Assembly (NCBI GenBank): GCA_030068145.1
Contig: JAPJBO010000475.1
Location: 108,276-172,275, forward strand
Reading direction: 5' to 3'
Source: Diplonema papillatum
Taxonomy: Eukaryota > Euglenozoa > Diplonemea > Diplonemida > Diplonemidae
Length of the DNA stretch: 64,000 bases
Positions 36,873 to 57,595 of the stretch are shown one piece after another. A program made the position numbers and the translations under genes. Numbering within the stretch: position 1 is the first letter of the stretch; every line of letters starts with the position of its first letter. The notes under the pieces were generated by a model. The model did not search any database, had not been told where the DNA came from, and worked only from the letters and a program-made list of their open reading frames with translations.

Positions 36873-36995
36873 CATGCAGGGTCAAAAGGTTGTGTCTTTT
36901 TGGAAATGGCAAAAAAAAATTTCTGGAAAAAAATTGGGTTTTTTGAATTTTAAAATTTTCGAACAAACTCTGCAGTAATTTTTGATGAAGTTGGT
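36873..36995 (+). mobile_element. 210-bp inverted-repeat element, copy 2 (left half)
   Basis: It starts CATGCAGGGTCAAAAGG and keeps the usual interior to TTTTTGATGAAGTTG, then stops. The right end is missing and no TA duplication can be checked. Confidence 0.8.
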
Positions 36996-37003
36996 CCAAA
37001 AAA

Positions 37004-37255
37004 GGTCGAGTTGGTGTCCTAAAATTTGTGAATCAAAAAAGGTCGAGTTGGCGTCCGAGAGGTGAATGAATCAAAAAAGGTCGAGTTGGTGTCCTATGGG
37101 TGGAATGAATCAAAAAAGGTCGACGAGTAGGACGCCATCGGGAACGGTGCCTCTAAAGTCCCCAAAGTCTAAAGTAGGACTTTAGACTTTGGCCCAAGCA
37201 ATCTTGGGTTCAAAATCTCAAAGTCTAAAGTAGCCAAGGTCTAAAGTAGGACCCC
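37004..37255 (+). repeat. Tandem repeats AAAAAAGGTCGAGTTGGTGT and CTTTAGACTTTGG
   Basis: Four copies of the first motif are spaced about 35 bp apart, followed by several palindromic copies of AAGTCTAAAGT. No coding potential. Confidence 0.75.
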
Positions 37256-37279
37256 TTTTTCAAAGTTGGTGTTCAGCTG

Positions 37280-37372
37280 AACAAGTTTCCCTACCACCAA
37301 CACCACCCAACCTGGGCTTGTGGTGAGTTAGGGATCCGGGGGCAGAATTCCCCGCAGCAAACTTAGAGACTT
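37280..37372 (+). repeat. Segment shared with the 3' side of DIRS element 2
   Basis: About 75 bp including GGTGAGTTAGGGATCC and CAAACTTAGAGA matches 53890-53962. It lies upstream of the plus-strand DIRS remnant and may be one of its terminal repeats. Confidence 0.55.
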
Positions 37373-37644
37373 CAGAATGACAGAAAGTAGTGAAAGGAAG
37401 TGGAAGAGAGGGAGAGAGAGAGAGAGATTTTGAAACTTGGTGTTCAGCAACACCTCCCATTCTGGACTTCAGAATGACACCTAACAGGGGGAAGGAAATA
37501 ATGAAAGAGGAGTTTTAGTTTTGTAGTCTGAGCCTGCGTCTTTTGGATGGTGTATCCTGCTCTTCTAGGTCAAACACAGGGGGGGTTTAGTTCTGGGGTC
37601 TCTTCTCGAGCTCTCTTCCCAAAAGAGAGGATGCATGCTCTGCA

Positions 37645-38866
37645 TGCAACACCTCCCGCGTCCCGAAGCGCCCTCTTCAGGCGGCCCTGAAGAAGGATGC
37701 GGAGGGGGTGGAGGTCAGCAACGCGATCTTCGCGAAGAACGACTTCATCGCGTTGCTTGCGCTGTGGTCGACAGCCCCAGTTGTCTGCAATCTGTGCTAT
37801 CAAAAAGTACGGCATCTCTTCCTCACCCCAGTGTCCCCGGATACCAACACAACACCGCCGACTCTTCTCCCGTCCCCGGATACCAATGCAACACCGCCGA
37901 CTGTGGCAGCAAGGTATCATGCAGGGTCAAAACCTTGTGTCTTTTTGAAAATGCCAAAAAAATTTCCGGAAAACCCGCTTCGGCTCGACGTCCCTCGGGG
38001 CGTTTTTTTCTGTCTCGAGGCATTTCCCAGCCCCTCGGGGCTCACACAAGGCCCCCTCAACCCGATAAAAAAAAACTCACTACCAGTGAGTTTTTCCGTT
38101 TTTCTACCAGTGAGAGAACGTATATTTTTTCCAAAAAATTTTTTAGGGCTCCATCGGCCCCGCGGGAGCGTTTTAAAAAGACACAAGGTTTTGACCCTGC
38201 ATGGTACACATACACTCGTATCATGGATGCAACTGTGCACCAGACGGAACAGGCGGTGGCAGTGATTGCTGCCCTCAAAAAGGAAAACAACGAGAAGGCT
38301 CAGCAGCTCATCATGCTCCAGCGCCAAATGGCAGAGCTAATGACAAAGGTTGGGAGCACAGACACAGCCGACCAGCAGGACCGACAGAAAGCAACCAAGA
38401 AGTGGACAGCAGCACCATTTCGTTCCCAGCTGATGCAAAGGACGTCCAGGAGTGGGTCCCGCACATTGATGGCAACCGAGCAGTTGGTCTACCATCTTGA
38501 GGGGCGATACCTCAGTGGGATGGTGCATTTGCCCGGCGGAGAGAGGTTGGAAGAAGCGTTCCACAGCTTGCGAATGTGGATAATGAGCGCTGCTTCAGCG
38601 GCTGGGAGACGACCCCGCATCGACAAGCAGGGAACGATCTCCTGCAGCTAGTTCGCGTTCAGTACCAGTATGTGCGAAATAAGGTGCCCAGGCGCGACCT
38701 CATGCTGGAGCTGACAAAGCAAGGTGAGGGGGTTGTTGGCCCGACAAACGTGGTTGACAAGTGCGCAGCGACCATCATGCAAAAGATGGGAAAGAAGAAG
38801 TTGCAGAAGTCGACCCCAGCTTTGAAGCGTGGTCATCAGGGAAGCGGGAGCGCCGGGACGAAATGA
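37645..38866 (+). pseudogene. Gag-like 5' ORF of DIRS element 1, degenerate
   Basis: The coding-like sequence is interrupted by element copy 3 (37917-38204) and contains frame breaks. After the insertion a coiled-coil segment (MDATVHQTEQAVAVIAALKK) is followed, in a second frame from about 38576, by NDLLQLVRVQYQYVRNKVPR and a basic tail. Position upstream of a tyrosine recombinase suggests the gag-type ORF of a DIRS-like element. No domain was recognised. Confidence 0.45.
37917..38204 (+). mobile_element. 210-bp inverted-repeat element, copy 3 (288 bp)
   Basis: Complete ends, flanked by TA on both sides. The centre is replaced by a GC-rich palindromic segment (CCTCGGGGCG..., ACTCACTACCAGTGAG) that resembles the repeats at 51605-52070. 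Confidence 0.9.
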
Positions 38867-38876
38867 CTGGGCGCCC

Positions 38877-40201
38877 CGGCTAGAGCCAACAAAAACGCCA
38901 GTTGCGCCCATCGCTCGAGCTTTTATGCCTCCAAAGATCGAGAAGCGCCCCCTTCCTCATCCCCGAAACGCCGCGGTACGTATCTTGCTTCCAAAGTCAG
39001 GAAGCTGCACGATGGTCTCAACGCCCTCCAGCGGATTACGAAGAAACACCGAGCCAGTTCACACTCCCGAAGTTTACCACAATCCTCTCAATCCCACATC
39101 CCTCATGGGGCAGGTGTTCCTCGACCACATTTCTGGCGACACGAGCCATACACACTTCCGGAAAACTGGGGAGCAGGTAGTTTCACGCGCCACAGCAACT
39201 ACGAGACTTCGGAATCTTGTTGCAGGAATGTGGGCGGCTTCCACGACTGCACAGCGCCGCAATCTTTGGAGGCGGTTCATCGCTTGGACGTCAAAGAACA
39301 ACATGCCAGCGACCCTGGACTCTGCATGCCTGTTTGTATTGGCTACGGGGGTGCGGCCGCAAGCGATGCTGACATATGCCAAAGGACTTTCTGGAATGTT
39401 CCGGCATATGGGTTTGATCAATCAGCCGCTGCTCAGCTTGGCTGCAGCTCTCAGAGCCAGTGGGGCGGCTATTCCCCTTCATCAAGCAATTCCCATGGAG
39501 AAGTCTGTTCTCGTGGCGTGGGCATTCCGGCAGAGCCCTCGTGTGTGTCTTGCAGCGCTGATTGCGTGCATCCACATTCGCAAAGACGAAGTAGTGATCG
39601 ATTGGTACACTCTCCCGAAAGGGAGAGCAGCAATGCCGTTCACTCAATCCAGATGGACGGTAGTGAAGGGCGACCTGACAGCGGCCATTTGCCTCTTGTT
39701 GAAATCACAGCTCCCCTTCAACAGGCTGACCACTTGGACTACAAGCACACTCAACGCACATTGGCAGATGTCTCACCAGATGAAAATGTACAGCGCGCAC
39801 AGCATCAAGAGGGGGGCAGTCACCCATGCGATCCAGAGGATTGTCGAAGGGCACCAAATCCCCGAAGTCTTGATATCATGCAGGGTCAGAACCTTGTGTC
39901 TTTTTAAAACGCTCCCACGGGGCCGATGGAGCCCTAAAAATTTTTTTGGAAAAAAAAAAATTTGCTCAACTTCCTCAAAAATTGCTGCAGAGTTTGTTCC
40001 AAACTTTTAAAATTCAAAAAACCCACTTTTTTTCTGGAAATTTTTTTTTGCCATTTTCAAAAAGACACAAGGTTTTGACCCTGCATGATATCTCGTCTTG
40101 CAAAGCACAAGGTAAAAGAAGGACTTGCAGAGGTGACCCTGCGGTACGGTACGGCGGAGGAATCGAGCTATCCTCCGAGTTTAGCCGGTGCTACCACATG
40201 A
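38877..40201 (+). pseudogene. DIRS element 1 tyrosine recombinase, split by an insertion
   Basis: Frames 38829-39875 and 40089-40201 form one recombinase once the element at 39876-40088 is ignored. Characteristic blocks are RRNLWRRFIAWTSKNNMPAT, LFVLATGVRPQAMLTYAKGL, YSAHSIKRGAVTHAI (the H-x-x-R/K box) and, after the insertion, EVTLRYGT with the presumed nucleophile Tyr. It is closely similar in layout to the recombinase at 55755-56849. Such enzymes integrate the circular DNA copies of DIRS-like retrotransposons. Apart from the insertion the frame is open, which suggests that the insertion is recent. Confidence 0.8.
39876..40088 (-). mobile_element. 210-bp inverted-repeat element, copy 4
   Basis: Complete, in reverse orientation (the CGGGGCCGATGG block is near the left end). 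The flanks read GATA and TATC, consistent with a TA duplication inside the recombinase frame. Confidence 0.95.
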
Positions 40202-40309
40202 AGAATGGAAAGCAAGAAGACGAAAAAGGCGTGAAACCAAGAAAACGGAAAACAAACACTGTGGGAAACGAAAAAGCCTTGCCGAAGACAAGGTCACTTT
40301 CCGCCTCCA

Positions 40310-40908
40310 CTACGCATGTTGGCCCAGAAAACGCCTCACCGCCTGTAGAACCTGGTCCTGATTGTCACGGGTCATCCTGATGGGCGGAACGCGCGATGGC
40401 ATATCAGCAGGATTGCATTCCGACTTCACCCACTCAAGGGAAAAAGTGCATCTACTGTCTTTCAGTGTCTGCAACGCACCCACAACTGAGTCGTTCAGGA
40501 TCCTGCTCTTGACACACTGCTTCTTCCTTGCGGCGCCAACAACGGTTGTGTTGTCAACAAAAATACTAATTGGTCTGCCAGCGGACTTGCGTGGAAGCAA
40601 CCTCAACACACAGAGTAAGGCGCGTGCCTCTAACTCATTGATGTGATGTTTCTTGTGGAAGGGTGACCATTCCTCCCCGTGAACGAATACTTCGCCTGTT
40701 TCCCGATCAACAATAACGCCGCCCCATCCCTTGAGGCTCGCGTCAACAAAAATGGTGAAAGCTGTTGGTTGAGAATGAGGTTGAACCTGGCGCTCCACTT
40801 GAACCTCTTGGCGCCACTTATTCAGTTGCACTACTACGGACGTTGGCAAAGCAACACGTGTGCCGGGTTGCCTTGTACTGCGATTTAGAGAGTTCACAAT
40901 TCTCCTTA
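40310..40908 (-). pseudogene. DIRS RNase H domain fragment
   Basis: About 199 codons ending in a stop. RNase H motifs are present: AFTIFVDASLKGWGG, HHINELEARALL, ISIFVDNTTVVG and WVKSECNPADMPSR, supplying the D, E, D, D residues. It aligns with the C-terminal part of the large frame at 54067-57174. It is on the opposite strand to the adjacent recombinase remnant and is cut at its 5' end exactly where element copy 5 begins. The two pieces were therefore brought together by rearrangement. Confidence 0.8.
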
Positions 40909-41111
40909 ACATGCAGGGTCAGAACCTTGTGTCTTTCTGGAAATGGCCAAAAAAAGATTTCCGGAAAATAAATGGGTTTTTTAAATTTTAAAAGTTTGGA
41001 ACAAACTCTGCAGTAATTTTTGAGGAAGTTGAGCAAATTTTTTTTTTTCCAAGTTTTTTTTTTGGGCTCCATCAGCCCCGCGGGAGCGTTTTAAAAAGAC
41101 ACAAGGTTCTG
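40909..41111 (+). mobile_element. 210-bp inverted-repeat element, copy 5 (right end lost)
   Basis: The left end is normal and preceded by TA. The right end stops at AAGGTTCTG and continues into CCAAAGCTCGG instead of ACCCTGCATG. Confidence 0.92.
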
Positions 41112-41469
41112 CCAAAGCTCGGAAGAAAGGGCCAAAAAGATCACGAAATACTACACTTGCTGGCGCCGTTCGTTCTTCGAAGCGACCAACGTTGCCGTTA
41201 CCCCCGTTCAGCACATTCCATCAGACTATCGCCTCCCCATACATTGCTGCACTCCTCAAGTCCACAACGGTCCGGTTTGAATCCAAGGAAGTTCTTCGGC
41301 GCTTCGTTGTCTTTGACCGCATTGCGTGGCCAGAGGGCGCGCACCTTACAAACTGGGGGGATGAACACATCCGGGAGCTCTACAGATACTACAGCAAGCC
41401 CGGCCGGGTCACGTACCGACAATATGAAGTGGACGTGCCAGCAACAGACACGATGCCTCGACCCACATA
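41112..41469 (+). pseudogene. Orphan coding fragment, interrupted gene part 1
   Basis: A frame running from AKARKKGPKRSRNTTLAGAV through YIAALLKSTTVRFESKEVLR and WGDEHIRELYRYYSK to MPRPTY. It stops at element copy 6. If that element and Merlin element A are left out, the frame continues at 43781 (TRSETKTDHGTP...LVRDWTLLKEVLR) to the next element. The family is not recognised. It is probably an internal part of another retroelement protein, because only element-bounded pieces are present. A second copy is at 44117-44474. Confidence 0.5.
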
Positions 41470-41683
41470 CCATGCAGGGTCAAAACCTTGTGTCTTTTTG
41501 AAAATGGCAAAAAAAAAAATTCCGGAAAAAAATTGGGTTTTTTGAATTTTAAAAGTTTGGAACAAACTCTGCAGTAATTTTTGAGGAAGTTGAGCAAATT
41601 TTTTTTTTTCCAAAATTTTTTTTAGGGCTCCATCGGCCCCGCGGGAGCGTTTTGAAAAGACACAAGGTTTTGACCCTGCATGA
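41470..41683 (+). mobile_element. 210-bp inverted-repeat element, copy 6
   Basis: Complete 214-bp copy with TA on both sides. It interrupts the orphan coding fragment. Confidence 0.95.
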
Positions 41684-42049
41684 TACAGCACCACTCGGGC
41701 GGGTGTCAGATTTTGCAAACGCGAAATCTCAGATTTTGCAAAATCGAAAATCTCAGATTTTGCAAAATCTGAGATTTGCAAAATCTGAGATTTTGGCAAA
41801 ATACGCAAAATCTGAGATTGGCCCATTTTGCAAAATCTGAGATTTGCAAAATCTGAGATTTCAGGTTTGCAAAATCTGAGATTTTCAGGTTTGCAAAATC
41901 TGAGATTTGGCCCAGCAAAAAAAAATTTCTGGGTTCGCCAATCTCAGATTTTGCAAAATCTGAGATTTCGCGTTTGCAAAATCTGAGATTTTCGATTTTG
42001 CAAAATCTGAGATTTCGCGTTTGCAAAATCTGAGATTTTCTGAGATGAG

Positions 42050-42520
42050 TGATGGGGTGGATTGGTGTGGGTGGGTGTGAGTGAGTGGGTTGGGTTGGTG
42101 TGAGAGAGGTGGGTGAGAGTGGTGGGTGGATTGGTGTGAGTGGTGGGGTGGATTGGTGTGAGTGGGTGTGAGTGAGTGGGGTGGGTTGGTGTGAGTGAGG
42201 TGGGGGTGGTGGTGTAGTGTGTGGTGTGAGGTGTGTGAGTGTGGGGGGTTAGTGGGTGGTGAGTGGAGTGGATTGGTGTGAGTGGGTGTGAGTGAGTGGG
42301 GTGGGTTGGTGTGAGTGAGGTGGGGGTGTGTGGTGTGAGGTGTGTGAGTGTGTGAGTGTGGGGGGTTAGTGGGTGTGAGTGAGTGGGGTGGGTTGGTGTG
42401 AGTGAGGTGGGGTGGTGAGTGGAGTGGATTGGTGTGAGTGTGTGAGTGAGTGGGGGTTGGTGAGTGAGTGGGTGAGATGGTGGGTTAGTGTGAGTGAGTG
42501 GGGTGGGTTGAGTGTGGTGC
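42050..42520 (+). repeat. G-rich GGTGTGAGTGAGTGGGG tract
   Basis: About 470 bp with almost no C on the plus strand, made of degenerate units of GTGTGAGTGAGTGGG. Open frames on either strand are low-complexity by-products. The second copy is at 45055-45525. Confidence 0.9.
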
Positions 42521-42524
42521 CAAT

Positions 42525-42785
42525 ACAGGTCAAACTGGATTTCTGTCTTGATCTTCCCTTTTGGAAGAGACACAGGCTAAACCAGGTTTCTGTCTTGAGG
42601 CACTTGCCAACACAGGTCAAACTGGATTTCTGTCTTGATCTTCCCTTGGAAGAGACACAGGCTAAACCAGGTTTCTGTCTTGAGGCCACACTTGCCAACA
42701 CAGGTCAAACTGGATTTCTGTCTTGATCTTCCCTTCTGGAAGAGACACAGGCTAAACCAGGTTTCTGTCTTGAGGCAAATACCAA
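42525..42785 (+). promoter_or_regulatory. Upstream repeat cassette, Merlin A (three units)
   Basis: Three tandem units of about 85-95 bp contain CAGGTCAAACTGGATTTCTG, CTTGATCTTCCC, AGAGACACAGGCTAAACCAG and TTTCTGTCTTGAGG. Related units precede the transposase of Merlin B and the large frame of DIRS element 2 in the same orientation, so a promoter or leader role is inferred. Confidence 0.5.
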
Positions 42786-42960
42786 ACTGCTTCTGTTCCT
42801 GGCCTTCACTGCCTCATCTAGCCTTCAGCATTGTTCCATGTTCTGCCTTTTTATTTTGCCTCTTGTTGACTGTGCAGCAAATGCAAAGCGTTGGTTGTAT
42901 TGATGTGAGCTGTGTTGCTTGTACTTGAAATTCCCAACAAACACACACAGGAGAGAGAAA

Positions 42961-43533
42961 ATGAGTTCTACACATGTGTCTGAACACCTTCAAAAAGGAA
43001 AAAACAGAAGGTGGGTGGCAGAGGCTGGGTCACGCCTCTCAAGTGAAAGGCAGAAGTTGTACTCAGGATCATCTTGGGTGAAGAGAAGGGCAAAGCCCCA
43101 ATTGCAACTCCTTGAGGTTGCAGCTGAGGGCCCAGAAGCTGTCGTCGAGCTCCTTCAGTGTTATGGGGTTCTGCCAACTCACGTCAACTGCCCCTGTTGT
43201 GGGGAAACTCTAGAATCATGGCAAATTAACTATGGAGGCCGAGGGAAGGGTGACTGGCCCTTCTGGCGGTGCAAACCGTGCAAACAGGTTATTGGTGGAA
43301 GCACCATGTTTGCAGGAGCCCTCAAGCAGCTTGGGCTCAAGCTTGAGGGTGTGGCTGAGCCGACTGATGATGATGATAAAAAGAAGAAGTCCAAAAAAGG
43401 GGGTGTGCATCTCTCCACCCTGCAGTTGGTGAACAAAATCCAGGGGTTTTCCCTGGGATCTCAACACAAGGCGCAGGATTCGAATATGTGGATGGACCAC
43501 GACACACACAGTAGGTACAACAAAGTGTTGAAA
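42961..43533 (+). pseudogene. Merlin A transposase, N-terminal part only
   Basis: It starts MSSTHVSEHLQKGK. At about residue 80 it has a zinc-ribbon pattern (NCPCCGETLE ... FWRCKPCKQVI) matching the first part of the transposase in Merlin B. The frame runs on through VHLSTLQLVNKIQGFSLGSQ and is then cut by the terminal palindrome array. The catalytic domain is missing, so this copy is non-autonomous. Confidence 0.7.
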
Positions 43534-43780
43534 ACAGGGTCAAAATCTGAGATTTTGGCAAAATACGCAAAATCTGAGATTGGCCCATTTTGCAAAATCT
43601 GAGATTTGCAAAATCTGAGATTTGCAAAATCTGAGATTTCAGGTTTGCAAAATCTGAGATTTTCACGTTTGCAAAATCTGAGATTTGGCCCAGCAAAAAA
43701 AAATTTCTGGGTTCGCCAATCTCAGATTTTGCAAAATCTGAGATTTCGCGTTTGCAAAATCTGACACCCGCCACCACTCG

Positions 43781-43912
43781 CTCGGAAACGAAGACAGACC
43801 ACGGCACTCCCCTTTTGCACGGAATGACCGAGGCAGACCTGGTGAGAGACTGGACCCTACTTAAGGAGGTTCTACGCGCCTCAAGATACTCCAAAAATGC
43901 ACACGCGGTGTA
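43781..43912 (+). pseudogene. Orphan coding fragment, interrupted gene part 2
   Basis: This continues in frame from 41469 once the two intervening insertions are ignored. It includes GMTEADLVRDWTLLKEVLRA and stops at element copy 7. Only one copy exists, because the tandem duplication lost the equivalent segment in unit 2. Confidence 0.5.
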
Positions 43913-44116
43913 TCATGCAGGGTCAAAACCTTGTGTCTTTTTGGAAATGGCCAAAATTCTATTTCCGGAAAAAAAAATGGGTTTTTTGAATTTTAAAAGT
44001 TTGGAACAAACTCTGCAGTAATTTTTGAGGAAGTTGAGCAAATTTTTTTTTTTCCAAGTTTTTTTTTTGGGCTCCATCAGCCCCGCGGGAGCGTTTTAAA
44101 AAGACACAAGGTTCTG
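43913..44116 (+). mobile_element. 210-bp inverted-repeat element, copy 7 (duplication junction)
   Basis: The left part differs from copy 5 at several bases. The right part, including the truncated end AAGGTTCTGCCAAAG, is the same as in copy 5. This is the expected product of recombination between two copies. Confidence 0.92.
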
Positions 44117-44474
44117 CCAAAGCTCGGAAGAAAGGGCCAAAAAGATCACGAAATACTACACTTGCTGGCGCCGTTCGTTCTTCGAAGCGACCAACGTTGC
44201 CGTTACCCCCGTTCAGCACATTCCATCAGACTATCGCCTCCCCATACATTGCTGCACTCCTCAAGTCCACAACGGTCCGGTTTGAATCCAAGGAAGTTCT
44301 TCGGCACTTCGTTGTCTTTGACCGCATTGCGTGGCCAGAGGGCGCGCACCTTACAAACTGGGGGGATGAACACATCCGGGAGCTCTACAGATACTACAGC
44401 AAGCCCGGCCGGGTCACGTACCGACAATATGAAGTGGACGTGCCAGCAACAGACACGATGCCTCGACCCACATA
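44117..44474 (+). pseudogene. Orphan coding fragment, second copy
   Basis: Duplicate of 41112-41469 with very few substitutions (one Arg to His change seen). Confidence 0.5.
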
Positions 44475-44688
44475 CCATGCAGGGTCAAAACCTTGTGTCT
44501 TTTTGAAAATGGCAAAAAAAAAAATTCCGGAAAAAAATTGGGTTTTTTGAATTTTAAAAGTTTGGAACAAACTCTGCAGTAATTTTTGAGGAAGTTGAGC
44601 AAATTTTTTTTTTTCCAAAATTTTTTTTAGGGCTCCATCGGCCCCGCGGGAGCGTTTTGAAAAGACACAAGGTTTTGACCCTGCATGA
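44475..44688 (+). mobile_element. 210-bp inverted-repeat element, copy 8
   Basis: Duplicate of copy 6 within unit 2, complete and flanked by TA. Confidence 0.95.
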
Positions 44689-44702
44689 TACAGCACCACT
44701 CG

Positions 44703-46258
44703 GGCGGGTGTCAGATTTTGCAAACGCGAAATCTCAGATTTTGCAAAATCGAAAATCTCAGATTTTGCAAAATCTGAGATTTGCAAAATCTGAGATTTTG
44801 GCAAAATACGCAAAATCTGAGATTGGCCCATTTTGCAAAATCTGAGATTTGCAAAATCTGAGATTTCAGGTTTGCAAAATCTGAGATTTTCAGGTTTGCA
44901 AAATCTGAGATTTGGCCCAGCAAAAAAAAATTTCTGGGTTCGCCAATCTCAGATTTTGCAAAATCTGAGATTTCGCGTTTGCAAAATCTGAGATTTTCGA
45001 TTTTGCAAAATCTGAGATTTCGCGTTTGCAAAATCTGAGATTTTCTGAGATGAGTGATGGGGTGGATTGGTGTGGGTGGGTGTGAGTGAGTGGGTTGGGT
45101 TGGTGTGAGAGAGGTGGGTGAGAGTGGTGGGTGGATTGGTGTGAGTGGTGGGGTGGATTGGTGTGAGTGGGTGTGAGTGAGTGGGGTGGGTTGGTGTGAG
45201 TGAGGTGGGGGTGGTGGTGTAGTGTGTGGTGTGAGGTGTGTGAGTGTGGGGGGTTAGTGGGTGGTGAGTGGAGTGGATTGGTGTGAGTGGGTGTGAGTGA
45301 GTGGGGTGGGTTGGTGTGAGTGAGGTGGGGGTGTGTGGTGTGAGGTGTGTGAGTGTGTGAGTGTGGGGGGTTAGTGGGTGTGAGTGAGTGGGGTGGGTTG
45401 GTGTGAGTGAGGTGGGGTGGTGAGTGGAGTGGATTGGTGTGAGTGTGTGAGTGAGTGGGGGTTGGTGAGTGAGTGGGTGAGATGGTGGGTTAGTGTGAGT
45501 GAGTGGGGTGGGTTGAGTGTGGTGCCAATACAGGTCAAACTGGATTTCTGTCTTGATCTTCCCTTTTGGAAGAGACACAGGCTAAACCAGGTTTCTGTCT
45601 TGAGGCACTTGCCAACACAGGTCAAACTGGATTTCTGTCTTGATCTTCCCTTGGAAGAGACACAGGCTAAACCAGGTTTCTGTCTTGAGGCCACACTTGC
45701 CAACACAGGTCAAACTGGATTTCTGTCTTGATCTTCCCTTCTGGAAGAGACACAGGCTAAACCAGGTTTCTGTCTTGAGGCAAATACCAAACTGCTTCTG
45801 TTCCTGGCCTTCACTGCCTCATCTAGCCTTCAGCATTGTTCCATGTTCTGCCTTTTTATTTTGCCTCTTGTTGACTGTGCAGCAAATGCAAAGCGTTGGT
45901 TGTATTGATGTGAGCTGTGTTGCTTGTACTTGAAATTCCCAACAAACACACACAGGAGAGAGAAAATGAGTTCTACACATGTGTCTGAACACCTTCAAAA
46001 AGGAAAAAACAGAAGGTGGGTGGCAGAGGCTGGGTCACGCCTCTCAAGTGAAAGGCAGAAGTTGTACTCAGGATCATCTTGGGTGAAGAGAAGGGCAAAG
46101 CCCCAATTGCAACTCCTTGAGGTTGCAGCTGAGGGCCCAGAAGCTGTCGTCGAGCTCCTTCAGTGTTATGGGGTTCTGCCAACTCACGTCAACTGCCCCT
46201 GTTGTGGGGAAACTCTAGAATCATGGCAAATTAACTATGGAGGCCGAGGGAAGGGTGA
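44703..46258 (+). mobile_element. Merlin element A, second copy, 3' part missing
   Basis: Duplicate of 41698-43253, with the 8-bp left duplication, palindrome array, G-rich tract (45055-45525) and cassette (45530-45790). It is broken inside the transposase gene by Merlin element B. Confidence 0.88.
45966..46258 (+). pseudogene. Merlin A transposase N-terminus, second copy
   Basis: Same start as 42961, cut after GGRGKG where element B begins. Confidence 0.7.
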
Positions 46259-46509
46259 GGCATGTGTAACATACAGAGAGGCTCTCTGTATTTTACATTT
46301 TTAGCAAAAAAAACGCTAAAAATGTAAAATACAGAGAGCTCTCTGTATTTTACATTTTTAGCGAAGAATTCGCTAAAAATGTAAAATACAGAGAGATCTC
46401 TCTGTATTTTACATTTTTATCAAAGAAGACGCTAAAAATGTAACATACAGAGAGAATCTCTGTATTTTACATTTTTAGCACAAAAAATGCTAAAAATGTA
46501 AAATACAGA

Positions 46510-46830
46510 GAGATGTAGTGCAGTGAAGTGTAGTGTAGTTGTAGTGTAGTGTAGTGTAGTGTAGTGTAGTGTAGTGTAGTGTAGTGTAGTGTAGTGTAGT
46601 GTAGTGTAGTGTAGTGTAGTGTAGTGTAGTGTAGTGTAGTGTAGTGTAGTGTAGTGTAGTGTAGTGTATTGTAGTGTAGTGTAGTTGTAGTGTAGTTGTA
46701 GTGTAGTGTAGTGTAGTTGCAGTGTAGTGTAGTGAAGTGTGAGTGTAGTGTGGGATGTGTTGTGTGAGTGTAGTGTGTGTGTAGTGGTGTGTAGTGTGAG
46801 TGTAGTGTGTGTTGTGTAGTGGGGGGGAGA
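46510..46830 (+). repeat. GTGTA pentanucleotide microsatellite
   Basis: More than 40 copies of GTGTA, giving way to GTGTGAGTGTA variants. On the opposite strand it gives long Thr/Leu/His/Tyr frames that are artefacts. Confidence 0.95.
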
Positions 46831-46924
46831 CAAGAGCAGCCAACACAGTACAAACTGGACATACACCCTTCCTTCACCACACATTTCCACTACACATTAG
46901 TGTAGTGGGTGTGGTGACCTGAGG

Positions 46925-47010
46925 GTACCAGATTCCTGTCTTGAGGCGAGCCTGGATTTCTGTCTTGATCTTCTTTGTGAAGAGACACAGGTCACACCAG
47001 GTTTCACAGA
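46925..47010 (+). promoter_or_regulatory. Upstream repeat cassette, Merlin B (one diverged unit)
   Basis: GATTCCTGTCTTGAGG, GGATTTCTGTCTTGATCTTC and AGAGACACAGGTCACACCAG appear as in the Merlin A cassette, about 110 bp before the transposase start. Confidence 0.45.
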
Positions 47011-47118
47011 TCACAGAACACAGCTGAAGGAGAACAGACCATTGCAACATTGAACCAGAGTTTGCCACTCCAACATTATGCCACATCAGACAGGTGAACA
47101 TTGTGAGAAAACCAGAAA

Positions 47119-49062
47119 ATGAAAATGCTCGTGCTGATACTGTTGCTGTTGTTCCTGGTGTGGATACCTGGTTGTGAAGCTGCAGAGCCAGGAAGCAAAA
47201 GAAGACGCACAGGCCCTGCACCGGCTCCTCTTCGACTTCCACTGGCTGAAGGGGCTGAGGTCAAAAAGGAAGAAGACAACGATGATGATGTGCCTGTGCC
47301 TGTTGCAAAACACCGACAACGCACAAAGCAGCGTAAGCCAGCTACACCTGCCCAAAAACAGCAGCAGAGGGCTGAGGGATACTCTGGAACCTTTCGAAAG
47401 CGGGTGCAGGCAAAGCCTAAATTTGGGATTGCTGCACTGATTCAGGAGGGAGACAGGACAATGGCCGAAAAACTACGTGAATATGGAGTGATCCCGCAGT
47501 CTATCACATGCAACAAGTGCAATGCAAAGCTTGAAGACATGGTCTGGACGGCAGCAAATGGTTCTACACCCCTCAACTGGCCTGTTTTCATTTGTGGTCA
47601 CTGCAAGCTGGTTTACTCAACAGCAGCTATTCTGAGCACGGCACTTGGAGTATCAGACAAGGGCGGACCTCTGAAGCTCAGGATTGCTGATCTCTTTTGT
47701 ATGATTGCTGGATTTGTGCACGGAGAAAGGCAAGCATTTGTTGTCTCAATGTGTGCTCCCATGACCCGTCAGACCGTCACACGCTGGGAAGGCGGATTTC
47801 GAGACATTCTAGGGGATGACACTCAACAGATGGAAGCAGCAAACTTACCACTAGGAGGCCCAGGGGCTATCATCGAGATTGATGAATTTTCTGTTGGTGG
47901 TAAGGTTGTGAAAGACACAGCAGGCAAGCCAGTCGGCTATGAGTACCTCCGTTTTGTTGGAATTGTTGTCAGGGGTACGTCTTTCTTCCTCATCCGTGAG
48001 CTTGCTCGTAAGGTGCAGCCTCTTGTTGAACCCAAAGGAACTGTGGCAAGTCCATCAGGACATAAGGACTTTACAAACAACAAAGGCCACTCAGTTGCAC
48101 CACCACCACCACCGATCTCAAAGGAGGAGTTCAAAGCTCTTCTAGATGAGGGGGTCATTGAAATAGGAACAGAAGAGGACCCGCTGTACATATCAACAGA
48201 CGGTGCAGCAACTTATCGCTCCATGCTTGATCCTACATCGCCTTCGTTTTATTGGGGTGACAAGAAACACTGCGTTAATTATGCGTGGGTTAATCACGGA
48301 AAAGAAGAGTGGTGCAAGAAGGTCGAGCTAGTGGCCACCCCCTCCATTGAGAAATGCTATGGAGAAACATGTGTTGCAGAGACACTGTGCAAACTGTCTG
48401 AGCCAGCCTCGGGCACTTCTGCTGCTGCAGGAGGCAACTTTTCCCCGAACTATCGAAACAAAGTGTGGGTTGCTGGAACACAGAAAGCAGATGGTTTGTG
48501 GAAGCACCTCAAGTCTTCACTTAAACACAAGAACTGCAGGAACCGTTCCAAGCCAGGAGAGATTGTCCGGTCTCAATGGAGGATGCAAAACACAGGGTTT
48601 GACCTCATCCACATTTTTCTGTGCACTTTGGGAAAGAAAATTGAGCAGATGGAACTGGTTATTCCAGCTGGTGAGAGTCAGGACGGCATTGTGAGAGACC
48701 CAGAAGCACCAAACATGCCATCTAACCTAATGCAGCTGCTGGCACAGCCTGGAATGCGTGAGCAGGTGCTGTCACAACCAGGAGTACGTGAGTTGCTGAT
48801 GCAAGGTCTGCAGGAGCCGCAGAATGAGCCTGGCCATGATCTCGTTGAGCCAAAACAAGAACAAGAAAAAGAAGACACTGATGATGAGGAAAACCCATTT
48901 CTTTCAAGTGACAGTGAGGCAGAAGCACCTCAAACCAGCCTGTCAAGTGTCCCAGTTTTTCACACAGCTGAACAGAGGGTTGTGTACAACCCTGAGCACG
49001 AAAACCCTCCTCGCAGAAGGCTGCAACTTATCATGCAGGGTCAAAACCTTGTGTCTTTTTGA
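47119..49062 (+). CDS. ISXO2/Merlin-family transposase
   Basis: A frame of 647 codons. A zinc ribbon (CNKCNAKLE ... FICGHCK, about residues 131-162) precedes a DDE-type domain: AIIEIDEFSVGGK (D255), PLYISTDGAATYRS (D361), CVNYAWVNHGKEEW (His393), and VAGTQKADGLWKHLK, which may supply the third acid (D458). This matches the ISXO2-like domain (D-E-F/T-G, sDG-a-Y, v-NH, K at the end). The last residues come from element copy 9, inserted at 49031; without it the frame would end four codons later, so the protein is essentially complete. The first 20 residues are hydrophobic and signal-like, odd for a transposase, and a downstream start may be used. It is the only apparently intact DNA transposase in the window. 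Confidence 0.85.
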   Translation: MKMLVLILLLLFLVWIPGCEAAEPGSKRRRTGPAPAPLRLPLAEGAEVKKEEDNDDDVPVPVAKHRQRTKQRKPATPAQKQQQRAEGYSGTFRKRVQAKPKFGIAALIQEGDRTMAEKLREYGVIPQSITCNKCNAKLEDMVWTAANGSTPLNWPVFICGHCKLVYSTAAILSTALGVSDKGGPLKLRIADLFCMIAGFVHGERQAFVVSMCAPMTRQTVTRWEGGFRDILGDDTQQMEAANLPLGGPGAIIEIDEFSVGGKVVKDTAGKPVGYEYLRFVGIVVRGTSFFLIRELARKVQPLVEPKGTVASPSGHKDFTNNKGHSVAPPPPPISKEEFKALLDEGVIEIGTEEDPLYISTDGAATYRSMLDPTSPSFYWGDKKHCVNYAWVNHGKEEWCKKVELVATPSIEKCYGETCVAETLCKLSEPASGTSAAAGGNFSPNYRNKVWVAGTQKADGLWKHLKSSLKHKNCRNRSKPGEIVRSQWRMQNTGFDLIHIFLCTLGKKIEQMELVIPAGESQDGIVRDPEAPNMPSNLMQLLAQPGMREQVLSQPGVRELLMQGLQEPQNEPGHDLVEPKQEQEKEDTDDEENPFLSSDSEAEAPQTSLSSVPVFHTAEQRVVYNPEHENPPRRRLQLIMQGQNLVSF

Positions 49063-49244
49063 AAATGGCAAAAAAAAAATTTCCAGAAAAAAAATGGGGT
49101 TTTTGAATTTTAAAAGTTTGGAACAAACTCTGCAGTAATTTTTGAGGAAGTTGAGCAAAATTTTTTTTTTCCAACATTTTTTTTTGGGGTCCATCGGCTC
49201 CGCGGGAGCGTTTTAAAAAGACACAAGGTTCTGACCCTGCATGT
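49031..49244 (+). mobile_element. 210-bp inverted-repeat element, copy 9
   Basis: Complete 214-bp copy with TA on both sides, inserted at the very end of the Merlin B transposase frame. Confidence 0.95.
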
Positions 49245-49335
49245 TATCTTCAAATGATCACTTTTATTTTCTTTCCTCTCTTTCTCTCTTTTTCCATCCC
49301 ATCTGGGAGGTGTTCCTGAGCACCATAAATTCGAT

Positions 49336-49463
49336 AATACTGAAAAAAAAACCAAAAAACATAAAAAAAAAAACAAAAAAAAAAATACAAACAAAAAAAA
49401 AAAAAAAAAACCCTCCCCCCAACTGAAAAAAAAAAAAAAAAAAAACAAAAACCATAAAAAAAA
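49336..49463. repeat. A-rich low-complexity tract
   Basis: About 85 percent A with scattered C, in runs of up to 19 A. It lies 3' of the transposase gene within Merlin B. Confidence 0.9.
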
Positions 49464-49892
49464 AGGGAGGGGGTGGAGATTAGGGGGGCATCATAAGTCC
49501 TCGACACTCCACCTTAAAAAAAAAAACGCGCCTTGTTGACTACCACCCTCTACCGAGGCTCTGGTGGTGAGGAAATGTCAACACTGTACAAGATCTCTGT
49601 ATTTTACATTTTTAGCGCTTTTTCACTAAAAATGTAAAATACAGAGAGCTCTCTGTATTTTACATTTTAGAGCTCTCTGTATGTTACATTTTTAGCGTCT
49701 TCTTTGATAAAAATGTAAAATACAGAGAGATCTCTCTGTATGTTACATTTTTAGCGTCTTCTTTGATAAAAATGTAAAATACAGAGAGATCTCTCTGTAT
49801 TTTACATTTTTAGCGAATTTTTCGCTAAAAATGTAAAATACAGAGAGCCTCTCTGTATGTTACACATGCCTCACAATACACCCACACAACAC

Positions 49893-50262: not shown

Positions 50263-51175
50263 TATAACTCTGTCTCAAGCCGAGGGGCTTCTCTTCCAAC
50301 ACCGTGAAAGGTAACAGACATCAAGGTTCTGGTCCCGTTTGCAGGAGCAGCAATATCACACTTCACCAATTGTTCTGCATGAGCAGCACTGAATGAAGAA
50401 CGGATACCATGCAGGGTCAAAACCTTGTGTCTTTTTAAAACGCTCCCGCGGGGCCGATGGCCACCCTAAAAAAAAATTTGGAAAAGAAAACAAATTGCTC
50501 AACCTTCCTATTACCGCAGAGTTTGTTCCAAAATTTTAAAATTCAAAAAACCCAATTTTTTTCCGGAATAAAAAATTGGCCATTTCAAAAAGACACAAGG
50601 TTTTGACCCTGCATGATACACTCTCATTGGTAACGATTGAGAAACGGGGGATTAAAAGTTGCATTCCAAACGAGATCAAACGTTCCCGTACGCATTTCCT
50701 CATTCTTAGCTTCAGCTTCTCAATGTAAGGTTGCACTTGTAGCGTGCAGTGGAGCGTTTCTTTCTCATCTGTTTGCCGGAATTCTGGAACAATGGGCACG
50801 CGGTCAGAGATTGTTGTGTGAATCATAAATATGCGTCACTTCCCAGTCTTCAGGGCACGCGCTAACGCAATTGGATCGCCTCCATATCTTATGGTCATCG
50901 GGAGACATGCCTTGATGTTTCGCTAAACGCGCTATAAGCCAATTGTAGAGGGACACCTTGAGACAACAGTTGGAAAAGATGTGAAAGAGCTCCTCGCTTG
51001 ATACTGTGACCGGAGAACGGCCGCATTCGAGGATCCTTTTCAAAGCGCGTTTAGCTCGGCCGTGCTTACTGGGTCAGACTTTGAAAACTGCCTAAGCTTC
51101 GGACAAGTGTCGCAATTACTCTGGTCAGGTCGCCTTTTATCACTGTCCAGACAAAAAGTTTTTTTTTGTCCCTGG
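50260..51175 (-). pseudogene. DIRS element 3, recombinase and reverse transcriptase remnant
   Basis: On the minus strand the recombinase tail is recognisable across frame breaks: VIKGDLTRVIATL, PFSGHSIKRGALSHLF, LIARLAKHQG and MTIRYGGDPIALARAL. It is followed by the start of the reverse transcriptase region (IEKLKLRMRKCVRERLISFG). The latter resumes left of the inserted element at 50407-50616 with FSAAHAEQLVKCDIAAPANG. The order and sequence match DIRS element 2. Several frameshifts show it is dead and older than the insertion. Confidence 0.75.
50407..50616 (-). mobile_element. 210-bp inverted-repeat element, copy 10
   Basis: Complete, reverse orientation, flanked by TA. It interrupts DIRS element 3. 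Confidence 0.95.
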
Positions 51176-52179: not shown

Positions 52180-52386
52180 CACAGGGTCAGAACCTTGTCT
52201 TTTGGAAATGGCCAAAATTAGATTTCCAGAAAAAAAATGGCTTTTTTGAATTTTAAAATTTTGGAACAAACTCTGCGGTAATTTTTGCGGAAGTTGAGTA
52301 AATTCTTTTTTTGCCAAATTTTCTTTTTGGGGTCCATCGGCCCGCAGGAGCGTTTTAAAAAGACACAAGGTTCTGACCCTGCATGA
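52180..52386 (+). mobile_element. 210-bp inverted-repeat element, copy 11
   Basis: A complete but diverged copy (left end CACAGGGTCAG), flanked by TA on both sides. Confidence 0.9.
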
Positions 52387-52488
52387 TACTTGCTGCGCAG
52401 CTCACTAGCATGCTCTGAACTCAAGCTGCTGGCCACATTCCCAGAGTGAATAGCAGCTATTACGTCAGTTTCCAGCACCAGTCCCCCT

Positions 52489-53064: not shown

Positions 53065-53066
53065 TA

Positions 53067-53277
53067 ACATGCAGGGTCAAAACCTTGTGTCTTTTTATAA
53101 CGCTCCTGCGGGGCCGATGGAGCCCTAAAAAATTTTTTGGGAAATTTTTTTTGCTCAATTTCCTCAAAATTACTGCAGAGTTTGTGTCCAAACTTTTAAA
53201 ATTCAAAAACCCCATTTTTTTCGGATTTTTTTTTTTTTGCCATTTTCAAAAAGACACAAGGTTTTGACCCTGCATGG
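53067..53277 (-). mobile_element. 210-bp inverted-repeat element, copy 12
   Basis: Complete, reverse orientation, TA on both sides, inserted in the CTTCACTTTGT array. Confidence 0.95.
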
Positions 53278-53278
53278 T

Positions 53279-53515: not shown

Positions 53516-53516
53516 C

Positions 53517-53843: not shown

Positions 53844-53962
53844 GGGGAAGGGTGGGCGGGCAAAAAGAAGATGTCCAACCCACCGCCACCACCACCCAAA
53901 CCTGGGCTCATGGTGAGTTAGGGATCCAACTCTGCTTGCAGAATTCCCTTAGTAAACTTAGA

Positions 53963-54122
53963 GAATTCGTCTACGCGCCGTTGTGCAGGAAACGTGAGCG
54001 GAATAACACGAGGAATAAACCGGAGCCAATGCCGGGAACACGAGAGGAAACGAAGAATTGTGAGAACTAAACTAACGAGGGGGGGCATCGCGGTGCTTGC
54101 ATGTTTTGCAGCAAGCCGCCAG
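53963..54122 (+). repeat. 160-bp direct repeat, inner copy
   Basis: See 53684. A repeat pair at the 3' end separated by a different repeat recalls the split direct repeats known for Ngaro/VIPER-type members of the DIRS order, but the matching 5' partners were not found here. Confidence 0.85.
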
Positions 54123-57100
54123 CCACCACCCCTTTGCCAGTAAAAAACTGCCCCACCGCGTGTGCAACCTTCTGAATCAACTCAGGGGTTGCCAGCGACG
54201 AGGGTTCAACACGTGATGGGAGGTCCGCCGGATTATCTCCGGATTTGACCCACTGGATTGTCCACGTACACCCCATCCTTTTCAGGATGTTTAACACGCG
54301 CATCACTGCGCCGTTGAGCACCTGATTCTGGACGCACATCCGCTTCCTAGTCACACCCATCACTGTCGTGTTGTCGACAAGAATCTCCAGGTGTGTATTC
54401 TGGTACTTTGGTGGCAGCCGTGCCAGGGTTTCACCCAGCGCTGTTGCCTCCAGAATGTTGATGTGCCTTCCAGACTCTTCCAGGTTCCACTTATCTCCCA
54501 TGATCGTCAATTCTGTGGTTGACCTGTCCACTACCACACCTCCCCAACCAGACAATGACGCATCCACAAATATTGTTGCTGTCGGATTGCCTATGACAGG
54601 CCTGATGATCCGCGTTTTGCCAATCGCTGCGCTCCACTTCGCCAACTCCCTACGCACCGACGGTGGTACTGACACCGTCTCCTCACCCATCCGTGTTCCT
54701 TGGTTGAGACTATTAGTTACACGCCGTAAGAATTTTAATGCAAACCAGTATTCTCCTGGTGACACCCCGGCGACTGCACTTGCATGCAACAGCCGGCCTC
54801 CCAGTGTCTCCAAATCGGAAGCATCCACTTGCAACAGATTCGTTCTCTTTATTTTCAATACTAATCTCTCTGCCGGGGTTACTGCCCGGGCCACGTGGTC
54901 GAAGACTACACCCAAAAACTCATACCGGGTTGCCGCATCCACGCTGTCGGCTTCCTTCCACGTGAGACAGCATTCCCTTGCAACTGCGTCCAGACGGGTT
55001 GTTTCCTTCATCACGGCAGACCGACATCCCGTGTATCGAATGTTATCGATCCACACGTGGGTTGTGACGTTTCTTGCCATGAATGTGTCCTGCACGTAGG
55101 CTGGATCCCCCGCCGCAGCTGCTGCAAGAGTATGCATGATCTCCGGGGAGCAGGAATGCCCCATGGGCAGTCGCGTCAGCTCGAACCACTCTCCAGCATC
55201 TGTCACAAACCTGAACAAATGCCGTGACTCCGCGGGAATTTCTATCGCATAGAACCCCGTCCGGAAATCCCGTGCACTTCCGCACTCATTCAACACTGCC
55301 GGCAGGTAGCTCGACACATGTCCTAAGGGTACTTCAGCCTTGTATCCCGCTTGCTCTGCTAGCTCGTTCGCTTGTTTTGTCCACAGGATAAAGCGCTGTC
55401 TCAACCCTGTTGGCTTTTCCTCTATCACTGTAAAGGGTACATTTTGCAGCGGGCCAGGGCCCTTGGCCGGACATGCTACACCACAACTCACGAGTTCGTT
55501 TGCGTGTTTTAGCTGGAACCTGCTTTCTTTCTGGAGGGTCGCTTCCCCTTCTTGTGGGATAGACGGAAAAAACGTCGTTTTCCAGACTTTATCAAACCGT
55601 ACTCTCTTTGAAAAACGCAACCTTGCGCGCAACTTTTCAACTTTCATAGGTTTCACCGAGGCCACATGCAATGGAGCCTTCCGCTCGTCTTCTGTCTTTG
55701 GTATCCTCGAGCTGTGGGCTCGTCTTGTTATTGAGTGCACGATTTTCACTTTATTCAAAGGAATTGTGTCACTTCTTGTGTTCGCAACGCCCGGGCTAGA
55801 CTTACCGGATCGCCTCCGTACCTGATCGTGACTTGTGGCAGTCCCACCATCGTTGCATGTTTTGCCAAACGGGCGAGTAACTCTTCGGGAATCCTGGCCC
55901 CGGCTGCCACCTTCTTGAAAAGATGTGTTAGTGCTCCTCTCTTCACACTGTGAGCAGAGAACTCCTGCATAACAGGGTTCTCTTTCCATTTCCTTGTTAC
56001 TTCCTCTGTTCCGAGCGCTGTCAGCCTTGTGAAAGGAGCCAGTTTCTCGTACAACTCCGCTATTTCTTTTGTCAAGTCGCCGACCACAACCGTGAACTTC
56101 GACAGGGTGAAAGGATTCGCCCACCTGGAAGCTGTTTTCCATGCAAGAAGTGCGGCAAACCTCCATCTGAGGTTCTGCTGTTGCAGCGCCCATCCTACAA
56201 GAACTTCCTTGGGAATTGGAAACGCCTGTTTCTCTGGTATTGCGGCACCTGCCGCTCTCAACGCACTTGCCAAACTTAAGAGGGATTCGCGGGGCAATCC
56301 AACATGGTGAAACGTTCCCGACAGAGCCTTTGCATAACTCAACTGAGCTTGTGGAGTCACGCCTGTTGCCACCACGAAAAGGGTTGCTGAATTTTGATTC
56401 AAAGGAAGGTTGTTTACACCCGACCACTGCGCGAAACGTCTCCAAAGGTTTTTTCTTTGCGATGAAGTCGCTAGTGCCCACATGCTTCCTACTACTCCAC
56501 GCAGTCGGTGTAAAGCCTCCAGTGTGTTTACATCCTGCTCCTTTCCTCGATTCTTGAAGGGGACGTTCGCCTTTTCGGCGACGTGTCGCAAGACCTCCTG
56601 ACCAAAAATTGTGCTGGGCACGGCCACCCCAACAGTGTTTACTCTTTTCCTTGAGATGGAGAGAGGCGCTTGGCGCTGGAAAGTTGCTTTTTGAGGCCGG
56701 ACGATCTTCACCATTGTCATTTCTGGCACTCTGCAAGTGCGATTTGCGAAAGTTGTTTGCAAAGAAAGGGGAAGACGGACAGAGTTGTGTAAATTGGACC
56801 CTGTTTGAAACTTCGGCACGCATACGGGTTTTAGGAGGGAGACTGACACGTTCGGCGGTGGACAAAGGCTCAGTCAATTTCCTTTTCCACCACCCCCGTT
56901 TCCCGTTCGGCAGGCTCTCCTGCCTGGCTGCCGAGATCTTCACCGCCCACTCCCTCTGCTTACGCGGAACGCTCGCGGCCCCTGCTTGCAGTGAGTCCCT
57001 GACCTCGGTCAGGACCTCCGGGAAGAGTGCAAGTCTGGGGCAGCTGAGCGATGCCGCGCATACGGAATCCTGTGTGGGTGTGATTGTGTGCGGCCCCCCC

Positions 57101-57174
57101 TCGAGGGACCTGGTCAGGAGGGGGAGGCCCTTCATGCCTTCTAGGGTCGCCGCCGCCCCTGCCACGGCCGCCAT
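54067..57174 (-). CDS. DIRS element 2 reverse transcriptase / RNase H
   Basis: One long open frame, with the start taken at MAAVAGAAATLEGM (57174). About residues 1-110 of this start are Ala/Arg-rich. The next 365 residues overlap the recombinase gene in another frame and look unconstrained. The reverse transcriptase follows: RDFRTGFYAIEIP (motif A), FELTRLPMGHSCSPEIMHTL (motif B) and THVWIDNIRYTG (motif C, with Asn for the second catalytic Asp), then YEFLGVVFDH. RNase H follows with TIFVDASLSGWGGVV, HINILEATALGE, LEILVDNTTVMG and VKSGDNPADLPSR. Typical of DIRS-like retrotransposons, which copy through RNA and integrate by a recombinase. Confidence 0.85.
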   Translation of the reverse strand: MAAVAGAAATLEGMKGLPLLTRSLEGGPHTITPTQDSVCAASLSCPRLALFPEVLTEVRDSLQAGAASVPRKQREWAVKISAARQESLPNGKRGWWKRKLTEPLSTAERVSLPPKTRMRAEVSNRVQFTQLCPSSPFFANNFRKSHLQSARNDNGEDRPASKSNFPAPSASLHLKEKSKHCWGGRAQHNFWSGGLATRRRKGERPLQESRKGAGCKHTGGFTPTAWSSRKHVGTSDFIAKKKPLETFRAVVGCKQPSFESKFSNPFRGGNRRDSTSSVELCKGSVGNVSPCWIAPRIPLKFGKCVESGRCRNTRETGVSNSQGSSCRMGAATAEPQMEVCRTSCMENSFQVGESFHPVEVHGCGRRLDKRNSGVVRETGSFHKADSARNRGSNKEMEREPCYAGVLCSQCEERSTNTSFQEGGSRGQDSRRVTRPFGKTCNDGGTATSHDQVRRRSGKSSPGVANTRSDTIPLNKVKIVHSITRRAHSSRIPKTEDERKAPLHVASVKPMKVEKLRARLRFSKRVRFDKVWKTTFFPSIPQEGEATLQKESRFQLKHANELVSCGVACPAKGPGPLQNVPFTVIEEKPTGLRQRFILWTKQANELAEQAGYKAEVPLGHVSSYLPAVLNECGSARDFRTGFYAIEIPAESRHLFRFVTDAGEWFELTRLPMGHSCSPEIMHTLAAAAAGDPAYVQDTFMARNVTTHVWIDNIRYTGCRSAVMKETTRLDAVARECCLTWKEADSVDAATRYEFLGVVFDHVARAVTPAERLVLKIKRTNLLQVDASDLETLGGRLLHASAVAGVSPGEYWFALKFLRRVTNSLNQGTRMGEETVSVPPSVRRELAKWSAAIGKTRIIRPVIGNPTATIFVDASLSGWGGVVVDRSTTELTIMGDKWNLEESGRHINILEATALGETLARLPPKYQNTHLEILVDNTTVMGVTRKRMCVQNQVLNGAVMRVLNILKRMGCTWTIQWVKSGDNPADLPSRVEPSSLATPELIQKVAHAVGQFFTGKGVVAGGLLQNMQAPRCPPSLV
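55755..56849 (-). CDS. DIRS element 2 tyrosine recombinase
   Basis: A frame of 364 codons lies wholly inside the first half of the reverse transcriptase frame, same strand, shifted reading frame. Key blocks are RKNLWRRFAQWSGVNNLP, TLFVVATGVTPQAQLSYAKA, TASRWANPFTLSKFTVVVGD (candidate first Arg), EFSAHSVKRGALTHLF (H-x-x-R/K box) and LPQVTIRYGGDPVSLARAL (presumed nucleophile Tyr). Tyrosine recombinases of this type integrate DIRS circles without target duplication. The nested recombinase/reverse transcriptase layout is known from DIRS1. The frame is intact, so this element may be young. Confidence 0.85.
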   Translation of the reverse strand: MSVSLLKPVCVPKFQTGSNLHNSVRLPLSLQTTFANRTCRVPEMTMVKIVRPQKATFQRQAPLSISRKRVNTVGVAVPSTIFGQEVLRHVAEKANVPFKNRGKEQDVNTLEALHRLRGVVGSMWALATSSQRKNLWRRFAQWSGVNNLPLNQNSATLFVVATGVTPQAQLSYAKALSGTFHHVGLPRESLLSLASALRAAGAAIPEKQAFPIPKEVLVGWALQQQNLRWRFAALLAWKTASRWANPFTLSKFTVVVGDLTKEIAELYEKLAPFTRLTALGTEEVTRKWKENPVMQEFSAHSVKRGALTHLFKKVAAGARIPEELLARLAKHATMVGLPQVTIRYGGDPVSLARALRTQEVTQFL

Positions 57175-57595
57175 GCTAAACCAGGTTTCTGTCTTGAGGC
57201 ACACTTTTCTGTTCTTTTCACTTACCATGCAGGGTCAAAACCTTGTGTCTTTTTGAAAATGGCCAAAAAAAAAAATTCGGAAAAAAATTGGGTTTTTTGA
57301 GTTTTAAAAGTTTGGAACAAACTCTGCAGTAATTTTTGAGGAAGTTGAGCAAAATTTTTTTTTTCCAAAAAAATTTTTAGGGCTCCATCGGCCCCGCGGG
57401 AGCGTTTTAAAAAGACACAAGGTTTTGACCCTGCATGTTAGCCTGTGTCTCTTCCCCAAGGGAAGATCAAGACAGAAATCCAGTTTGACCTGTATTGGCA
57501 AGTGTGGCCTCAAGACAGAAACCTGGTTTAGCCTGTGTCTCTTCCAAAGGGAAGATCAAGACAGAAATCCAGTTTGACCTGTGTTGGCAAGTGCT
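57175..57595 (-). promoter_or_regulatory. Upstream repeat cassette of DIRS element 2, split by an insertion
   Basis: Read on the minus strand, two and a half units of the cassette found before the Merlin transposases (CAGGTCAAACTGGATTTCTG ... AGAGACACAGGCTAAACCAG ... TTTCTGTCTTGAGG) run up to the presumed ATG. Element copy 13 interrupts them at 57225-57438. Confidence 0.5.
57225..57438 (+). mobile_element. 210-bp inverted-repeat element, copy 13
   Basis: Complete copy with TA on both sides, inserted in the cassette upstream of DIRS element 2. Confidence 0.95.

Follow-up and report, generated by a model that had tools for sequence, protein, structure and literature searches.

A family of short inverted-repeat elements with a 4-bp nTAn target duplication in Diplonema papillatum

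Copies in the window and the sequences around them

The window, a stretch of 64,000 nt, carries thirteen copies of one inverted-repeat element, in agreement with a preliminary description of this DNA. All thirteen have the inverted end CATGCAGGGTCAAAACCTTGTGTCTTTTT in common; nine possess both ends and four are damaged (Table 1). With up to three mismatches allowed, the 17-bp end CATGCAGGGTCAAAACC has 22 matches in the window, compared to 0.26 expected from shuffled sequences. The last seven of the nine two-ended copies measure 208-212 bp each. TA lies one base outside the terminal CATG on both sides of all nine, and in seven of them the left and right flanks agree in all four bases xTAx (6/8 if a duplicated pair is counted once). 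The copies represent fewer independent insertions, since a tandem duplication multiplied the insertion at 41471/44476 and part of the pair 40910/43914, whose right part is common to both copies. The copy at the duplication junction (43914) is a hybrid, which recombination between two copies would be expected to produce.

Table 1. Element copies and the tandem duplication in the window
Feature	Position	Strand	Remarks
Two-ended copy, 1,537 bp	24702..26238	.	Satellite and another repeat inside; duplication GTAA/GTAA
Truncated copy, single end, no adjoining TA	36873..36993	-	Found by end matches
Two-ended copy, 286 bp, middle rearranged	37918..38203	-	Flanks GTAT/GTAC (3/4 identical)
Complete copy, 211 bp	39877..40087	+	Duplication ATAT/ATAT
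Copy, high-coordinate end broken	40910..41108	-	Contains left edge of tandem duplication
Complete copy, 212 bp	41471..41682	-	Duplication ATAC/ATAC
Hybrid copy at duplication junction	43914..44113	-	First ~100 bp own; remainder identical to copy at 40910
Complete copy, 212 bp	44476..44687	-	Insertion of 41471 multiplied by tandem duplication
Complete copy, 212 bp	49032..49243	-	TTAT/TTAT; 647-aa ORF 47119-49062 extends into copy
Complete copy, 208 bp	50408..50615	+	ATAC/ATAC
Copy, one end mutated	52182..52385	-	Damaged copy
Complete copy in repeated DNA, 209 bp	53068..53276	+	GTAA/GTAA
Complete copy, 212 bp	57226..57437	-	TTAC/TTAG (3/4 identical)
Tandem duplication	40907..46258	+	40907-43253 vs 43911-46258, 99.5% over 2.35 kb; left breakpoint inside element copy

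Insertion of the family into other repeats, as proposed earlier, was borne out by the flanks and by the empty sites treated below: copies are surrounded by satellites, by other copies of the same element and by other mobile elements. The ORF at 54067-57228, with RNase H and reverse transcriptase matches that both remain below cut-off, looks like a retrotransposon polymerase and appears DIRS-like by eye, and a further RNase H match just under cut-off lies at 40313-40918. The 647-aa ORF looks by eye like a Merlin/IS1595-type transposase; domain searches gave no Merlin/IS1595 family match for it. Inverted ends built of 57-59-bp repeats surround this ORF (46255-49874). At about 12.3, 15.4, 19.9 and 21.4 kb, ORFs of 288-346 aa that all start in the same way form a repeated cassette (12301-22282).

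Parts of an apparent minus-strand gene (23831-27061), with weak EF-hand and sub-cutoff coiled-coil matches, are found on either side of the 1,537-bp copy, which is perhaps located in an intron of this gene. An inner stretch of 230 bp, which the copy has in common with the fetched locus L048, has 42 matches listed in the genome. Of the three matches within C1-C9, the one in C2 is L048 itself, while those in C5 and C7 are more than 100 kb away from listed exact ends, and the stretch is therefore taken as a separate repeat.

End matches give a genome average of about one copy per 60 kb, and the copies are concentrated in islands where repeats are nested. Among the 100 exact ends listed (C1-C9), 58 are found in 5 of 300 20-kb bins, with C7 and C8 outside the bin count; a dense island such as that of the window is therefore not unusual for this genome. 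One family end occurs five times at an exact spacing of 397 bp in C250:72212-73845, perhaps as a tandem array derived from an element copy.

Family structure, age and target duplication

The assembly containing the window comprises 271 Mb in 2,910 contigs. A 24-bp end was matched 4499 times in forward and 4507 times in reverse orientation (9,006 matches in total, up to three mismatches), while the reversed control had no genome match at the same threshold. These end matches correspond to roughly 4,500 copies of the nTAn MITE per 271-Mb genome. When ends were paired in the window and in 26 fetched loci, 22 of these 27 sequences yielded a total of 57 element records; because the loci L035 and L036 overlap, one copy appears twice among them, and 41471 and 44476 are one insertion. 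Alignment of 45 distinct copies of 190-230 bp gave one 212-bp consensus with 29-bp ends, which forms a single long hairpin when folded. The termini are CATG...CATG, and the ends begin with CATGCAGGG. In a second form of ~235 bp, one end has GGTAACAGG or GGTAAGAGG as its inner motif and the opposite end GGTAAACGCTGCC or GGAAAACGCTGCC. With A/T tracts excluded (151 columns), the 45 copies diverge from the consensus by a median of 2.0% (range 0.7 to 14.3%), in a sample taken mostly from islands in few contigs and not drawn at random.

Like other MITEs, the elements are short, non-coding and uniform in length, with inverted ends and a high copy number, and the family is real, abundant and apparently young. 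The initial reading as a MITE is in agreement with the inverted ends, the consensus from 45 copies and the empty sites, and the fairly recent activity assumed with it is supported by the median divergence in the sample. Viral contigs contained no match to the family, and a further search of genome contigs gave two matches, compared to about one expected by chance according to an estimate. A literature search with the end sequence returned only works unrelated by title, and NTAN and "target site duplication" were not found together in one paper; we do not claim that the family is unpublished.

TA is present on both sides in 49 of 54 distinct flank pairs, and 41 of these 49 are identical over four bases (P ~2e-35 if only TA were duplicated). 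Eight of the 49 mismatch over the four bases and 5 of the 54 have no TA on at least one side, for which decay, chimaeras or mis-pairing are possible causes. The commonest of the 41 duplications are ATAC (7), TTAT (6) and ATAT (5), while TTAA occurs once. After symmetrization of 39 clean sites, few begin with C or end in G (8%), and the base directly preceding the site is seldom A (5%).

For 23 of the 57 element records, the fetched DNA contained a match across the joined flanks. Removal of four bases from the right flank made 16 of these 23 empty sites gap-free, compared to 0, 3, 0, 3 and 5 sites for the removal of 0, 2, 3, 5 and 6 bases, respectively. The 16 sites are partly non-independent: five elements adjoin another copy, and in four of these cases the match is weak, being the neighbour or the element itself; several sites lie in satellites, and one record is duplicated through overlapping loci. 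Clear cases are the copy at L037:2368, with its empty site at L034:915-1034 (120/120 bases), and the copy at L038:8748, which directly adjoins another, with its empty site at L033:1408-1527 (120/120). At two places two complete copies are exactly four bases apart, and a third such pair follows L038:8960.

Since the outer bases match and the removal of four bases fits the empty sites best, the target duplication is 4 bp, nTAn. The preliminary description was correct in placing TA on both sides of complete copies, but TA is not the whole duplication. A complete lack of counterparts without the element plus one TA would, according to it, have spoken against the reading; empty sites were indeed found, and they fit best with the element plus four bases removed.

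Coding pieces in long copies and searches for a transposase

As described before, no matching transposase is visible in the window, and this also holds for the other stretches read. A longer coding relative had been proposed as a check, and coding material was in fact found in long copies, but it looks nested, and no transposase could be assigned to these ends in the long copies or in the stretches read. Four of ten long-range end pairs have identical 4-bp flanks (C222:210604-214795 with CTAG, C1037:40182-42902, C199:258586-259902 and one in the region C94:129034-130108). The flanks of C223, C38 and C501 match at three of four bases, while those of C369, C1008 and C1071 differ, and the latter pairs are probably not single elements.

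L031 contains a MULE-like piece (15.1 bits against a cut-off of 27.6), to which a piece common to L075 and L001 is 41% identical. In L031 and L075 arrays of ~30-bp repeats are located on both sides in opposite orientation. Judging from the layout of L031 only, its piece is probably nested in an element copy. Five further places carry a piece resembling that of L001 and L075, and in none of them did the 251-261 bases read at the expected position contain the CATGCAGGG end. Two of these places have the end GGGACTTTACCC in common, followed by unrelated DNA, and we interpret it as the end of the MULE element itself; the remaining three have other sequence there, and the stretch read may not be the right one. 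In C222, the 291 inside bases that were read constitute an open frame (C222:212350), whose 97 residues are found with 100% identity at 22 places, C222 included. Frames of this type reach up to about 1,100 residues, mostly 1,000. The ORF is hAT-like by eye, and its 97 residues had no Pfam match. If element length is assumed to be equal, all 20 places where an end would be expected in 11 other copies of this ORF lack CATGC, as does the left place of the copy in C1 (L005). Since these ends are absent around other copies of the genes, the MULE-like genes and the C222 ORF most likely were inserted into element copies. Both were rejected as carriers, the MULE with two conclusive places out of five. 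In L032, a fragment that looks Crypton-like by eye has neither a Pfam match nor a second copy in the fetched loci.

In the genome search, PF13843 (piggyBac) gave 118 listed matches, PF13358 (DDE_3) a single sub-cutoff match with two stops in it (3/14 controls detected), PF13359 (Harbinger) no match (1/14 controls detected), and PF02992 (CACTA-type) no match, but with 0 controls detected. Up to 1.5 kb on each side of 20 of the 118 piggyBac matches, the family end was absent except for one weak match in L067, which looks like chance on reading. In the three piggyBac families examined at their ends, TTAA is followed by CCA or CCC, unlike CATGCAGGG, and among the matches read piggyBac did not emerge as a carrier. 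Of the 118 listed matches, 56 have one and the same score and represent the L073/L074 family, about 30 of which lie in an open frame of 891 residues, and the end that was read is TTAACCC; this family is apparently the result of a very recent burst.

Possible mechanism and comparison with known systems

We propose, with a probability of roughly 0.55, that the family is a non-autonomous cut-and-paste MITE which is moved in trans, with a 4-nt stagger on TA that generates the nTAn duplication. A MITE of about 212 bp (~235 bp in the second form) with the ends 5'-CATGCAGGGTCAAAACCTTGTGTCTTTTT and without a gene would be mobilized by a transposase acting in trans. This enzyme would make staggered cuts in its target, 4 nt apart and centred on TA, with a preference for A/G/T-TA-A/C/T, the element ends would be joined to the target, and repair would then leave the 4-bp duplication. 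From a duplication of 4 bp centred on TA we infer that the target is cut twice, at positions four bases apart on either side of TA.

As mover, we tentatively favour a transposase of the piggyBac type whose target is relaxed from TTAA to nTAn, since the cut geometry of PiggyMac and piggyBac matches and piggyBac genes are abundant; the chance of this being correct is well short of even. PiggyMac-dependent cuts in Paramecium leave 5' overhangs of four bases with TA at the centre, and likewise those of piggyBac with TTAA, according to the available part of the source (PMC3408717). Against this lean stand the single TTAA among 41 duplications and termini other than CC..GG, and because the ends do not fit such termini the family is not filed under piggyBac. 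Stated more generally, and just as tentatively, a recently active enzyme may cut any nTAn with a 4-nt stagger and act on ends that differ from all piggyBac ends read, be it a piggyBac lineage that lost its TTAA specificity or a new superfamily. The piggyBac lineage, if true, would show the cutting geometry of the ciliate PiggyMac in a mobile element.

About as likely as a relaxed piggyBac is a mover of the same MITE from another 4-bp superfamily, or from one that has not been described. IS5/PHIS relatives, MuDR-type, IS481-type, Kolobok, Sola, Chapaev-type CMC, Ginger and a hAT relative with a shortened stagger are candidates, which jointly come close to, yet stay below, an even chance. A duplication of 4 bp is within the range of PHIS (0-4 bp), IS256/MuDR (4-10), IS481EU (4 or about 15), CMC (2-4) and Ginger (4-5), as far as the accessible portions of the sources go (PMC10045372; PMC4482050), and the ends of our family misfit the CC..GG termini given for piggyBac/IS1380 in the same excerpt (PMC10045372). 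The search with PF13359 (0 matches, 1/14 controls) counts against such a mover, as do the MULE pieces encountered, which were not carriers; PF02992 gave 0 matches as well, but 0 controls were detected with it. Another reading is that the coding material in the long copies, either the MULE-like pieces or the ORF of 1,000 residues, represents the transposase of the family itself. It would agree with their position in L031, L075 and C222, where these ends enclose them and the 4-bp flanks are identical in each case, and with the range excerpted for IS256/MuDR (PMC10045372). We nevertheless consider this improbable, since the MULE lacks CATGCAGGG ends at all five other places, two of them clear, and the C222 ORF copies, equal length assumed, lack CATGC at all 20 end places and the left place in L005; the nesting in L031 is read from layout.

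Even less probable is the Tc1/mariner-type enzyme with a TA duplication that had been suggested in the preliminary description. It would account for TA on both sides in all nine complete window copies and in 49 of 54 distinct flank pairs, but the outer bases match as well in 41 of 49, the removal of two bases leaves three gap-free empty sites compared to 16 for four, and DDE_3, the model searched, had only its one defective sub-cutoff match genome-wide. The duplication thus has the wrong length, and this suggestion was not supported. The probability that all copies are mere parts of satellites or segmental duplications, with no transposition, is close to nil: tandem duplication did multiply 41471/44476 and 40910/43914, and the end in C250 is repeated at 397-bp spacing, but flanks differ between copies, their 4-bp duplications match, and empty sites occur in unrelated sequence.

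MITEs are assigned to superfamilies by the length and sequence of their target duplication, and a family that duplicates nTAn but can be read as a TA element would be misfiled. Stowaway-type Tc1/mariner MITEs are short, A/T-rich foldback elements with TA at the insertion point and a duplication of 2 bp; they resemble the present family except for its 4-bp duplication, and no DDE_3 match above cut-off was found. hAT elements duplicate 8 bp of their target and MULE/MuDR elements mostly 8-11 bp, as opposed to 4 bp here. For IS256/MuDR, however, 4-10 bp are given in the part available of PMC10045372. PIF/Harbinger (Tourist-type) MITEs are likewise short and non-coding with A/T-rich duplications, but their duplication is TWA in the excerpt of PMC4482050 and not a 4-bp nTAn, and the genome has no PF13359 match.

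A 4-bp duplication with central TA is shared with piggyBac, whereas the TTAA rule and the CC..GG termini do not apply to our family. The piggyBac/TTAA MITEs, such as the coral CMITEs (PMC2872659, accessible part), are likewise short and non-coding, with inverted ends and this type of duplication, and the present host genome is rich in piggyBac genes. In contrast to these CMITEs, the duplication here is nTAn and rarely TTAA, the ends begin with CATGCAGGG and not CCY, and no matching piggyBac element was found among the 20 matches read. Both TTAA-specific piggyBac and a domesticated enzyme of ciliates have been reported to cut with the geometry proposed here (PMC3408717, in the portion available), and thousands of copies, of low divergence in our sample, offer an accessible route to an enzyme with this geometry. 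PiggyMac excision sites in Paramecium also comprise 4 bp with a central TA and free outer bases; as far as the same portion goes, they differ from our family in that they belong to programmed excision by a domesticated enzyme, while here a mobile repeat with long conserved ends is inserted (PMC3408717).
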